From Candidatus Eiseniibacteriota bacterium (GTDB lineage Bacteria > Orphanbacterota > Orphanbacteria > Orphanbacterales > Orphanbacteraceae): a stretch of 18,987 nt of DNA. Below are positions 13,588 through 18,987 of this stretch, piece after piece (the stretch's first letter is position 1; every line of letters begins with the position of its first letter). The stretch is from NCBI GenBank assembly GCA_024276995.1, contig JAJRWB010000002.1, forward strand, positions 1 to 18,987, read 5' to 3'. Under the pieces are notes generated by a model that saw only the letters and a program-made list of their open reading frames with translations, did not search any database and was not told the origin of the DNA. The translations under genes were made by a program, and so were the position numbers.

Positions 13588-14547
13588 ATGGCGCGTAAGC
13601 ATCACGCCGGCGAGGCGGTTCACACGGAGCACTCGCCCCACTTGCAGCATCACTTCGACACGCCGGTGCAGCAGTACGATTCGGCGAAAATGGGGATGTG
13701 GCTTTTTCTCGCCACCGAGGTGCTCCTCTTCTCGGGACTCTTCTGCGCGTATGCCGTCTACAGGAGCAACCACCCGGAGGTGTTCGCCTACGCGAGCCGG
13801 TTCCTCGACACGACGCTCGGCGCACTCAACACGTGCGTGCTCCTCTTCAGCAGTCTCACGGCGGCATGGGCGGTGCGCGCGGCGCAGCTCGGACAGCGGA
13901 AGCTGCTGATCGCCCTCCTTTCGATCACCCTCGTGTGCGGTTTCGGCTTCCTGGGAGTCAAGTACGTCGAGTACTCGGCGAAGTGGACGCACGGGCTTCT
14001 GTGGGGGGCGCGGTACAACCCGGCGGAACATGGGGAAGAGGGCGCGGCGGCGGAAGGCGTAGCTGGGCACGCGGCGGCGGAAGGCGGTGCAACGGCGGGC
14101 GCGGTGGAAGCGGCCCGAGATGCGACGGACGCCGATGCGAAGCGCGCCGGCGTTGAGGGGACGGCCGCCGCGGATAACGCGACAGGCGATGGGGCGCAGG
14201 CGGAAGCCGCGCCGGCACCGGCCGCGCCCGCGCAGGCGGCGATCGGCCCGCGCGGGCTGACCGAAGAGGCGGTGCTCAATCCCGATTTCGGAACCGACGA
14301 CGTCATCCATATCGAGCCCGACCCGCAGAACGTGCAGCTTTTCTTCAGCGTCTATTTCGGCATGACCGGGCTTCACGCCATCCACGTGATCGCCGGGATG
14401 ATCGTTCTCGCGTGGCTCTTGATCCGCGCGATGAAGGGGGAATTCGGCCCGCGCTACTATACCCCCGTCGATCTGGGCATCCTCTACTGGCATCTCGTCG
14501 ATTTGATTTGGATCTTCCTTTTCCCCCTTTTATACTTGATCGATTAG
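13588..14547 (+). CDS. coxC: Cytochrome c oxidase subunit III with Ala-rich loop
   Basis: A 319-residue subunit III. The N-terminal part (about 33-140, with KMGMWLFLATEVLLFSGLF) and the C-terminal part (about 250-319, with YFGMTGLHAIHVIAG and YWHLVDLIWIFLFP) match the family and give about five helices. Glu44 in ATEVLLF is the conserved acidic residue near the oxygen path. Between them (about 148-222) lies an Ala/Gly/Glu-rich low-complexity insert that most subunit III proteins lack. The subunit stabilises the catalytic core. ATG 13588 is 1 nt after coxA, with GGGGGA at 13573-13578. Confidence 0.95.
   Translation: MARKHHAGEAVHTEHSPHLQHHFDTPVQQYDSAKMGMWLFLATEVLLFSGLFCAYAVYRSNHPEVFAYASRFLDTTLGALNTCVLLFSSLTAAWAVRAAQLGQRKLLIALLSITLVCGFGFLGVKYVEYSAKWTHGLLWGARYNPAEHGEEGAAAEGVAGHAAAEGGATAGAVEAARDATDADAKRAGVEGTAAADNATGDGAQAEAAPAPAAPAQAAIGPRGLTEEAVLNPDFGTDDVIHIEPDPQNVQLFFSVYFGMTGLHAIHVIAGMIVLAWLLIRAMKGEFGPRYYTPVDLGILYWHLVDLIWIFLFPLLYLID
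14029..14253 (+). repeat. Low-complexity Ala-rich coding insert in coxC
   Basis: About 75 codons, close to half of them Ala and most of the rest Gly, Glu, Asp, Thr and Pro. The DNA is built from GCG/GCC-rich runs without a strict repeat unit. The encoded loop between two membrane parts of subunit III is probably disordered and periplasmic or cytoplasmic. The frame stays open, so it is part of the protein. Confidence 0.7.
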
Positions 14548-15598: not shown

Positions 15599-15683
15599 AG
15601 ACAGATACGAAATGGCGCCGGCCGGCGCGGGCGGGACCGATGCCGCAATGCCGGGACGCCGTCCCCAGTCGTTGGAGATCGAA

Positions 15684-16607
15684 ATGAAAAGGAAGATTCG
15701 AAGAATCCCGGTCGCGCCGCTTGCGGCGGCCGTGCTTCTCTTCGCGCTCTGTCTTACCCTTCCCCTTTCCGCTTCCGCCGAAGATGCCGGCTTCGATGCG
15801 TACTGGCACGACGGCCTCGCCGAACTCGACGGTTACGACCTCACCGTCTCGCGCTACGGCGAGGAGCGGCAGGGGACGGCTGTGATGATCTATGTGACCG
15901 AGCCGTTCAGCGAGAAGAAACTTGTCAAGGTGGACGACGCGAACGCGAACCGGCGCGACACGTTCGACGCGCTCAAGCTCAACCTGGTGCGCGATTTCCA
16001 GACGGGAATCTACGACTACAACACGATGTCCTCCCTTTTCGTGCGCAGCGACGACTTTCGCCCGTCGAAGATCTCGTTCAGCAGCGCCGAATGGTGCGGT
16101 CACGTGTACGACGAGAGGATCTTCCGCCGCGGCAAGGTGGAACGGTCGCTCCGAAGCTACTTCGAAGACCGGTCGGAAGAGCGCAGAATCAGCAACCCCT
16201 CGGAGGGGATCGTCGAAGAGAACCTCTTCATCCTTCTAAGGGGGTTGCGCGGTGCTTTCTTGAAGGAAGGGGAGAGAAAATCGTTCGTCTTCCTCCCGTC
16301 GAGCTACGCCGAGCGGATCGGGGGTGCGCCGTTCGAATGGACCACCGCCGTGGTGAAGCGGGAGAAGGGATTGCGCGAGACCGAAGTTCCCGCCGGGCGG
16401 TTCGACACGATTCTCTACAAGGTGGAGATTTCCGGCGGGCGGACGGGGGAGTTCTTCGTCGACTCGAAGTACCCCCACGTCATCGTCCGGTGGACGCTGC
16501 CCCCCGACAGCTCGGGAGAGCTGACCGGCTCGACGCGCCTTCCGTACTGGAAGCTCAACGGTAACGGTGACGAGAAGTATCTCGGGGAAATCGGCCTGGG
16601 CGGCTGA
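15684..16607 (+). CDS. Secreted protein of unknown function (family often mislabelled Maf)
   Basis: A 307-residue exported protein: basic N-terminus, hydrophobic core and a likely cleavage after SASA (about residue 32). The mature part carries the blocks AYWHDGLAELDGYDL (39-53), SRYGEERQGTAVMIYVTE (56-73), NLVRDFQTGIYDYNTMSSLF (positions 100-119) and SSAEWCGHVYDE (133-144). These match, from memory, a Bacteroidetes-type secreted family that databases often call 'septum formation inhibitor Maf'; it bears no resemblance to the cytoplasmic Maf nucleotide pyrophosphatases. The real function is unknown. I placed the start at ATG 15684 because it begins the signal peptide and has GGAG (15674-15677) 6 nt upstream; the ATG at 15612 would add a tail in front of the signal. 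The next gene begins 29 nt later, so the two are probably co-transcribed. Confidence 0.82.
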   Translation: MKRKIRRIPVAPLAAAVLLFALCLTLPLSASAEDAGFDAYWHDGLAELDGYDLTVSRYGEERQGTAVMIYVTEPFSEKKLVKVDDANANRRDTFDALKLNLVRDFQTGIYDYNTMSSLFVRSDDFRPSKISFSSAEWCGHVYDERIFRRGKVERSLRSYFEDRSEERRISNPSEGIVEENLFILLRGLRGAFLKEGERKSFVFLPSSYAERIGGAPFEWTTAVVKREKGLRETEVPAGRFDTILYKVEISGGRTGEFFVDSKYPHVIVRWTLPPDSSGELTGSTRLPYWKLNGNGDEKYLGEIGLGG

Positions 16608-16636
16608 CGCCCGAGGCGCAAACGAAAGGACGGACC

Positions 16637-17845
16637 ATGAAACGATCCCGGCCACGATACGCGGCGACCGGGGCGGTGCTGGCGCTCCTCCTTGCGGCGC
16701 CGGCGCTCTTCGCCGGCCAGCCCGGCGCGGGAGGAACGTACGAGGAAGCGCTCGCCAGGGCGACCGCAAGAGGCATTCCCCTGGTGCTCGACTTCTATAC
16801 CGACTGGTGAAGCGGCTGCCAAGCATTCGCTCGTGCAGCGGAAGAAGATGAAACTCTCCAGGCGACACTGAAAAAGGTGGAGTTCCACGCGATCGACTGC
16901 GAAAAGGGCGAGGGGATCGACCTCGCGAAGCAGTTCAAGATCAAGGGGTACCCGACATACATCGTCTACACCCCCGACGGAAAAGGGAAAATCGATCACT
17001 GGCTCGGCTTCGACGACGGCCCCGGATGGTCCGCCTACGTGGAGGCCGACATCGCCGACCCGACGGTGGTTGCCGACAGGACCGCGCGGTTCGAGGCGGA
17101 GCCGACGGCGCGCGACGCGAAGGTGCTCGCCCGGGTGAGCGATGCCGAGTCGCGATACGCCGACGCCGCGAATTACTTCAGGACGGCGCAGAGGCTCGAC
17201 CCCGCCGCGGCGGACGAGCTGGCGTTTCCTCTCTTCGATACGATCCTCTCGGGACACAAGGCGGGGGCGTTCGAGCTCGCCGACGCCCTGAGCGCCGCCG
17301 ATGCGGTGATCGAAAGAGAGAACGCCGACCCCGCCGAAGCGATCTTCGTGCAGCTGATGCTCAGCGGCCTGCTCAAGGAGAGCGCCGACGCCGAGCTGAA
17401 GACGAAGTACTTAAAGGCGGCGGTTCGGCTCAGCGAAAGGAGCGACGATCCGCAGGTTCTGAAGTACCGTCCGCGGATTCTCGTCGATTACGCCCTCCAG
17501 GTCGACGGGGACAAGGAGAAGGCGCTCGGTCTCAAGCGCGACCTCCTGCCGGAAGGTTGGAAAGACGATGCCGGCGAGCTGAACGGCTTCGCGTGGTGGT
17601 GCTTCGAGAACAACATCAATCTCGCCGAGGCGGAGCAGCTCGCCCGGCGCGGCGTCGAGCTTGCCGAACCGGGCAGGCAGAAGGCGAGCATCCTCGACAC
17701 GCTCGCCGAGATCTGCAACGCCCGCGGCTTGTGCGGCGAGGCGGTGAGACTGGCAAAACTCTCCGTCGAAGAAGCGCCCGACAACAAGTATTACCAGGGC
17801 CAGGTCGAGCGCTTCGAGAAGCTCCTCCAGAAAGGCGCGAATTAG
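16637..17845 (+). CDS. Exported thioredoxin-TPR selenoprotein with in-frame TGA (UxxC)
   Basis: Read through TGA 16808-16810, the frame gives 402 residues: signal peptide (about 1-26), thioredoxin domain (about 33-135) and a helical TPR-like tail (about 145-400). The active site reads LDFYTDW-U58-S-G-C61, with the TGA exactly where relatives have the first Cys of WCxxC. The cis-proline loop is GYPTY with Pro106. The motif and signal suggest an envelope thiol-disulfide reductase whose selenolate is the attacking residue. ATG 16637 has AAAGGA 6 nt upstream. A product from the internal GTG at 16877 would lack both signal and active site and has no Shine-Dalgarno. TGA ends many neighbours normally, so the code is not reassigned. 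Selenocysteine is inferred; a nonsense mutation or sequencing error is the alternative, but one hitting this exact codon is unlikely. Confidence 0.85.
16826..16842 (+). promoter_or_regulatory. Candidate bacterial SECIS hairpin
   Basis: UUCGCU (16826-16831) pairs with AGCGGA (16837-16842), one pair being G-U, closing a 5-nt loop CGUGC. The loop starts 22 nt after the TGA and holds G then U at its second and third positions, as bacterial SECIS elements bound by SelB require G/GU in the apical loop about 16-37 nt downstream. A competing fold pairs GCUGC (16815-16819) with GCAGC (16835-16839). Codons here (CAA, GCA, GCT, CGT, GCA, GAA, GAT, ACT) depart from the GC-ending habit of the gene, as expected if the RNA is constrained. 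Confidence 0.55.
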
Positions 17846-18163: not shown

Positions 18164-18987
18164 TTGAGTCGAGCCGCCGAAGCGAAGCGGACCTATCCCT
18201 CTCCACGTGGTGGATACGCCCGCCACGCCTGCGCCCCGCTCATGATCGCCGAGGGTCCCCCCTCCCCCACCGGTGGGAGAAAGCTCCTCGATCGCGTCCG
18301 CTCCGAGATCCGCATCCGCCACTACAGCCGCAGAACCGAAGAAGCGTACGCCGGGTGGATCCGCCGGTTCATCGTATTTCACCGGATGCGCCATCCCAGT
18401 GAAATGAGCGAACATGAGATCTCGGCGTTTCTTTCCCACCTGGCGGTCGGCCGCAATGTCAGTGCTTCCACTCAGAACCAGGCGCTCAGCGCCATTCTCT
18501 TCCTCTACCGGAAAGTACTCGGTATCGACCTGAAGTGGATCGATGGAATCGTCCATGCGAAAAGACCGCAACACCTTCCCGTTGTTCTCACGACCGAAGA
18601 GGTTCGAAAAGTGCTTCTGGAACTCCACGGCATCCCCAAGCTGATAGCAACACTGCTCTACGGATCGGGACTCCGGCTCCTCGAATGCGCGCGCCTTCGG
18701 ATCAAGGATATCGACCTGGCAAAAGAACAGCTCCTCGTCCGCTCCGGCAAGGGAGCGAAGGACAGGATCACAATGCTCCCCTCTTCCTCCAAGCCAGCTC
18801 TCACGAAACAGATCGAGAGCGTCCGGACGCAACATCGGAAGGACCGCGAAAAAGGGGCGGGATGGGTCGAACTCCCCGGCGCGCTCCAACGGAAATACGC
18901 CAACGCCGGCAGAGATTGGGCCTGGCAGTGGGTCTTCCCCGCCACACGCATCTATACCGACCGCGAAACCGGCGAGAAACGCCGGCA
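18164..18987 (+). CDS. Integron-type integrase (IntI-like tyrosine recombinase), 5' part
   Basis: 274 codons before the right edge, no stop. The core-binding domain is typical: LLDRVRSEIRIRHYSRRTEEAY (positions 41-62), FLSHLAVGRNVSASTQNQAL (89-108) and HLPVVLTTEEV (137-147). The catalytic domain starts with LLYGSGLRLLECARLRIKDID (164-184) holding catalytic Arg171, and SGKGAKDR with Lys196. The stretch GWVELPGALQRKYANAG (233-249) followed by DWAWQWVFPATRIYTDRETG is the extra segment found in integron integrases and not in XerC/D. The remaining HxxR, H/W and Tyr nucleophile lie beyond the edge. TTG 18164 has GGAG (18153-18156) 7 nt upstream; ATG 18242 (residue 27) has no Shine-Dalgarno but gives a more usual N-terminus. 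Codon use is less GC-biased than in the respiratory genes, consistent with transfer. Confidence 0.88.
   Translation, partial: MSRAAEAKRTYPSPRGGYARHACAPLMIAEGPPSPTGGRKLLDRVRSEIRIRHYSRRTEEAYAGWIRRFIVFHRMRHPSEMSEHEISAFLSHLAVGRNVSASTQNQALSAILFLYRKVLGIDLKWIDGIVHAKRPQHLPVVLTTEEVRKVLLELHGIPKLIATLLYGSGLRLLECARLRIKDIDLAKEQLLVRSGKGAKDRITMLPSSSKPALTKQIESVRTQHRKDREKGAGWVELPGALQRKYANAGRDWAWQWVFPATRIYTDRETGEKRR

Follow-up and report, generated by a model that had tools for sequence, protein, structure and literature searches.

Selenium-containing thioredoxins with a UxxC motif are known, and one of them has been verified (PMC13188914). Table 1 of that 2026 study, which covers 119 prokaryotic selenoprotein families, contains a selenocysteine (Sec) thioredoxin of family PF00085 and a Sec thiol:disulfide interchange protein of family PF13098, both UxxC, together with a Thioredoxin_7/PDZ protein whose motif is CxxU. 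CnoX (YbbN; PDB 3QOU) joins an N-terminal thioredoxin domain to a C-terminal TPR domain; it resides in the cytosol, works with GroEL/ES, and has the motif SxxC in E. coli (PMC8129009). The C-terminal (gamma) domain of DsbD is a periplasmic reductant.

We analyzed a stretch of 18,987 nucleotides (the window), which is an entire contig (C32) of a 3.76-Mb genome that is 96% complete. The window carries alternative complex III and cytochrome oxidase genes in an act-sco-cox cluster, at the end of which lies a gene that an earlier note had read as a probable selenoprotein of the thioredoxin type. Translation confirmed the observation on which that note was built: from the ATG to the TAG at 17843 to 17845, one 402-codon frame is broken by a single stop, a TGA at codon 58 that takes the place of the first Cys in a WCxxC thioredoxin motif (FYTDW-U-SGC). 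The read-through product matches Pfam families Thioredoxin_7 (PF13899; 3e-14) and Thioredoxin (PF00085; 4e-10). An open reading frame that starts at the GTG at 16877 is also present, as the note had said, from which annotation would report a truncated protein of 322 amino acids; this fragment has lost the active site and matched no Pfam family.

Features of the Sec thioredoxin gene, its upstream neighbor, and two Sec machinery genes of the same genome (G000); positions are those of the window unless a locus is named
Feature	Position	Strand	Description and basis
Shine-Dalgarno-like AAAGGA	16625..16630	+	6 nt ahead of the ATG; read from the sequence
Complete gene, almost certainly of a selenoprotein	16637..17845	+	402 codons with UGA as Sec, stop TAG; translation and full-length homologs of about 40% identity
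Signal-peptide-like N-terminus, residues 1-26	16637..16714	+	Basic start, hydrophobic core, small residues; by eye
Thioredoxin domain, residues 34-125	16736..17011	+	Pfam PF13899/PF00085; AlphaFold beta-alpha pattern, high pLDDT
In-frame TGA, predicted Sec58, first residue of UxxC	16808..16810	+	Same column in 35 loci; Cys in Cys-form homologs
Cys61, predicted resolving cysteine of UxxC	16817..16819	+	Invariant in 38 aligned homologs
SECIS-type hairpin	16826..16842	+	5' arm UUCGCU 16826-16831, loop CGUGC 16832-16836, 3' arm AGCGGA 16837-16842
cis-Proline codon Pro106, thioredoxin active site	16952..16954	+	Invariant; just before strand 107-111
All-helical TPR-like tail, residues 128-401, with invariant Cys322	17018..17839	+	AlphaFold, Foldseek TPR superhelices, weak Pfam TPR
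Upstream 331-aa exported-looking protein	15612..16607	+	No Pfam or NCBIfam family
Split selA	L097 1617-2983 = G000 contig C12 38616-39982	minus	Two frames
selD, itself a selenoprotein gene	L098 1659-2582 = G000 contig C49 5158-6081	minus	AKAG-U-AAK

AlphaFold, run on a 38-sequence alignment, returned a model with a pLDDT of 93.4 in which Sec58 starts helix 59-70, Pro106 precedes strand 107-111, and a long series of helices follows. The protein belongs to the thioredoxin superfamily by its WCxxC-type motif at a helix start, its cis-proline, and its beta-alpha-beta fold. Positions 58 (Cys or Sec), Cys61, Pro106, Trp308, and Cys322 are invariant, and most members also have a Cys360/Cys366 pair. 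All full-length homologs begin with a signal-peptide-like sequence as judged by eye (in L094 and L095 with a lipobox-like LAGC or LAAC), which argues for export. Foldseek placed E. coli YbbN/CnoX first by E-value, followed by TPR superhelices and DsbD-gamma. With YbbN, the superposition was poor (TM 0.23/0.32; rmsd 21.7), and therefore the likeness is one of architecture, with a different arrangement of the domains.

CnoX is nevertheless the nearest working analogue. Both proteins have the thioredoxin and TPR architecture, whereas ours has a predicted signal peptide and Sec, and the signal-peptide-like N-termini of its family, scored by eye, do not fit a cytosolic GroEL/ES partner. The nearest thioredoxin domain, both by profile (PRK00293; 3e-11) and by fold (PDB 2fwe, 1uc7, and 1vrs), is DsbD-gamma, whose role as a periplasmic reductant we propose for the window protein also; unlike DsbD, however, the latter has neither the membrane domain nor the alpha domain, has Sec for Cys, and carries a TPR tail. 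With the Sec proteins of PF00085 and PF13098 it shares the thioredoxin fold and Sec at the attacking position of UxxC, but it differs from them in its predicted export and in a TPR-like tail of about 270 residues. The Trx7/PDZ domain selenoprotein NF041199 (PF13899) is of the same Thioredoxin_7 family and is also bacterial, yet it combines CxxU, with Sec second, and a PDZ domain where the window protein has UxxC and a TPR tail (PMC13188914, PMC9312934). The NF041199 profile had no match in the window protein, and a search of NCBIfam, which includes the known selenoprotein families, gave 12 weak matches, none over its curated cut-off. No thioredoxin-TPR protein appears among the 119 families of the published table, and the words "TPR" and "tetratricopeptide" are absent from the main text of that paper (PMC13188914). 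A literature search on selenoproteins of Eisenbacteria, Krumholzibacteriota, or Zixibacteria, or with PF13899, found nothing on a thioredoxin-TPR family. The best reading is that the UxxC thioredoxin-TPR protein is an apparently unlisted architecture and a new subfamily of a known kind of selenoprotein, absence from the sources being no proof that it has gone unseen.

Homologs were sought first in 98 sampled genomes and then more widely in the relevant phyla and among GTDB genomes. Among the 98, good full-length matches came only from the window's own family and from two further groups. In total, a TGA stands in the identical alignment column in 35 loci from 35 genomes, the window included, which belong to three phylum-level groups; the Sec-type homologs are 31 to 43% identical to the window protein. 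Their frames contain no second TGA, so the codon-58 column is the sole place at which it occurs, which is more than chance would give. The contexts are of the FYTDWUPSCKVFAR type, and the motifs are UPSC, UGSC, UPGC, UGGC, UGPC, USGC, UGAC, UAAC, and USSC. Other homologs have Cys in this column (WCxxC or KCGPC), and in three genomes (G001, G004, and G005) a Cys-form second copy exists beside the Sec form. Thus, both kinds of relative that the earlier note had named as support, those with Cys at position 58 and those with TGA, were found, and the pattern of other inactivating mutations that would have told against it was not seen in them, the frames being otherwise intact. On the tree there are at least two changes between Sec and non-Sec states (in which the row for L107 is shortened, its residue actually being Ser). 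This homolog, L107 (G101, contig C282), has WSYSC, with Ser in place of Sec or Cys, much like the SxxC motif of E. coli CnoX; the same genome also has a Sec form, L108. At a further locus, L105 (G100, contig C154), the gene lacks the short stretch with the Sec codon and the hairpin and continues in a shifted frame, owing either to a genuine deletion or to a fault of the assembly.

Comparison of the Sec genes revealed a SECIS-type hairpin, which the earlier note had not described. The helix occupies the stretch 15 to 33 nt after the TGA (+18 to +36 when counted from the U of this codon) and has 6 or 7 bp in 35 of 35 Sec genes; the outermost of the family's seven pairs is an A-A mismatch in the window. 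The loop is CGUGN with one exception, CGGGN. Cys-form homologs, which are equally related, form only 2 to 5 pairs at this site. Three of the seven pairs have changed on both sides (G-C to A-U; C-G to U-A; and G-C to C-G, U-A, or A-U). Pairing holds in 97.5% of the cells of the hairpin alignment and drops to 35 to 57% in slid registers, the covariation score was reached by 0 of 500 shuffles, and RNAalifold picked the same helix unprompted. Because the hairpin partly overlaps a conserved FAR[AE] peptide, we ran a control in which each gene was recoded with its own synonymous codon frequencies. The hairpin with a CGTG loop was seen in 34 genes against 1.3 expected under recoding, and the Arg codon of that peptide was CGT in 34 of 35 genes against 3.8 expected from the genes' own usage, figures that are to be read as coming from nonindependent trials, since the position was picked after looking and the sequences are related. 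CGT makes up 6.5% of the Arg codons in the window's gene cluster.

The hairpin also agrees with the published bacterial SECIS model in its geometry. That model has an apical loop of 3 to 9 nt with a G in the first two positions, an upper stem of 4 to 16 bp, a UGA-to-loop distance of 16 to 37 nt, and a minimum free energy of -7.5 kcal/mol or lower (PMC13188914). Here the loop has 5 nt with G second, the stem 6 to 7 bp, and the UGA-to-loop distance is 21 nt; the energy rule is reached by 29 of the 35 helices, whereas the window's helix, taken by itself, falls short of it at -5.4 kcal/mol. As a free 45-mer, the window RNA prefers a competing hairpin (-13.4 versus -5.4 kcal/mol). Nucleotides 18 to 36 alone fold into the SECIS helix, and we would argue that, with a ribosome paused on the UGA codon, the 5' half of the competing structure would be occluded. 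A single-sequence fold of the window's 53 nt was unremarkable (z -0.28), the hairpin emerging only by comparison, and an Rfam search returned no SECIS. When run on its own genome, a covariance model of the hairpin (R1) scored this site at 52 bits and the next at 19.6, which speaks for its specificity and is no independent support, the site being in the training set. That search yielded no further selenoproteins in the genome, the next matches (19.6 and 19.0 bits) being without a matching upstream in-frame TGA.

We then turn to whether the organism could insert Sec. The genes that the earlier note had proposed looking for, selA, selB, selC (tRNA-Sec), and selD, are all found in the genome. SelB (359 bits) and SelD (380 bits) score over their NCBIfam cut-offs, and tRNA-Sec (71 bits) scores over the Rfam gathering score and is called by ARAGORN as tRNA-SeC with anticodon TCA. 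SelA is present as two parts (410 and 99 bits), which lie in different frames: when the intact SelA of a relative is aligned to the extracted stretch, the match leaves its first frame at base 1042 and resumes in a second at base 1048, a change within a few bases at about 39,040 to 39,060 of contig C12, and selA is in a single frame in 12 related genomes. Both halves are otherwise intact, and we therefore consider a lost pathway less likely than a fault of the assembly or a lesion of very recent date. The selD gene carries its own in-frame TGA, followed by a CUUCC-UGAG-GGAAG hairpin, at the known UxxK Sec site of SelD. SelB is over its cut-off in every searched genome of the window's phylum group and of the G072 group and in 73 of 80 genomes of the G031 phylum. 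Its co-occurrence was therefore dropped as a discriminator of the Sec form, SelB being near-universal in these groups and present in Cys-form genomes as well.

Because 34 distant relatives keep both the codon and the hairpin and the genome carries the machinery, we hold it to be nearly certain that the gene encodes a selenoprotein in which this UGA is read as Sec, in support of the earlier note. There is only a slight chance that the UGA is instead read as Cys or another residue, whether by Sec machinery that is short of selenium, by a suppressor tRNA, or through general reassignment. Cys is a functional alternative in the homologs, and the identity of an inserted residue is beyond proof by sequence alone. 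However, actB, actD, actE, coxB, coxA, coxD, the second coxC, and the immediate upstream gene all have TGA as their normal stop, much as had been noted before, and therefore the codon is not globally reassigned; in addition, the best tRNA-Sec match has anticodon TCA, selA, selB, and selD are present, and the hairpin has the geometry that SelB recognizes (rule in PMC13188914). That the gene is a pseudogene, its catalytic Cys codon having recently been hit by a nonsense mutation or misread in sequencing, is hardly credible. The frame does hold a stop, and the break in selA shows that errors or lesions occur in this assembly; but the TGA recurs in the same column in 34 other genomes, whose frames are otherwise intact with ordinary downstream conservation, and the hairpin goes specifically with the TGA forms. 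A shared accident does not explain this, which refutes the idea for the family.

For the Sec thioredoxin, we propose the following course. SelB and tRNA-Sec would decode the UGA as Sec, guided by the hairpin just downstream in the coding sequence, and the product would be exported across the inner membrane as a thioredoxin domain with an attacking Sec (U-x-x-C) and a helical TPR-like tail. Judged by its family, the protein is probably a periplasmic thiol-disulfide reductase, in which the Sec58 selenolate would attack a substrate disulfide, Cys61 would resolve the mixed selenenylsulfide, and the enzyme would be re-reduced by an electron donor in the membrane, of the DsbD/CcdA type. The tail may select partners; the analogy with the thioredoxin-TPR chaperedoxin CnoX gives roughly even chances that it binds partner or unfolded proteins.

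Carried further, this analogy leads to a different main function, which we consider rather unlikely: that the selenoprotein mainly holds unfolded or oxidised proteins, as an exported, CnoX-like selenium chaperedoxin, and does not serve housekeeping disulfide reduction. The thioredoxin and TPR-like architecture, the first rank of YbbN/CnoX in Foldseek, the invariant Cys322 of the tail, and the Cys360/Cys366 pair are all consistent with such a protein. The poor superposition and differing domain arrangement speak against it, as do the cytosolic location of CnoX and its lack of an attacking Cys in E. coli (PMC8129009). Similarly unlikely is a wider reading, in which the whole new subfamily, present in three or more phylum-level groups of little-studied bacteria, consists of exported selenium chaperedoxins. 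Their TPR tails would bind envelope proteins that are oxidised or unfolded, and the Sec thioredoxin would mend the disulfides of these clients.

More doubtful still is a dedicated role in assembly of the neighboring cytochrome c oxidase or alternative complex III, in which, in the window's genus, the protein would reduce Sco, CoxB, or c-type heme-binding cysteines. The position of the gene at the end of the act-sco-cox cluster suggests it, and in G004 a Sec gene lies near coxC together with a 56% identical copy of the 331-aa upstream protein. This protein is not near the Sec gene in the other loci examined, though, and the link to cox is found in two genera only, the window's and that of G004; the other 25 neighborhoods searched had no nearby act or cox gene and no conserved neighbor. 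Elsewhere in the window, a cytochrome oxidase subunit III gene (13588-14547) has a long Ala/Gly/Glu-rich insertion between two conserved parts, each an NCBIfam stretch. On the other side of the Sec gene, an integron integrase (TIGR02249; 303 bits, over cut-off) occupies 18164-18987 and is open at its 3' end; because the contig breaks inside it, an integron may follow.

The predicted periplasmic Sec thioredoxin adds thioredoxin-TPR, an apparently unlisted architecture, to the prokaryotic selenoproteome. Standard gene calling, which here would yield a fragment of 322 residues that lacks the signal peptide, the active site, and any Pfam match, is likely to do the same in the other genomes with the gene, and once the family is recognized, 35 genomes or more regain an exported redox enzyme. 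Since Sec and Cys versions exist, sometimes in the same genome, the family offers a clean natural experiment on the benefit of selenium to a periplasmic thioredoxin.
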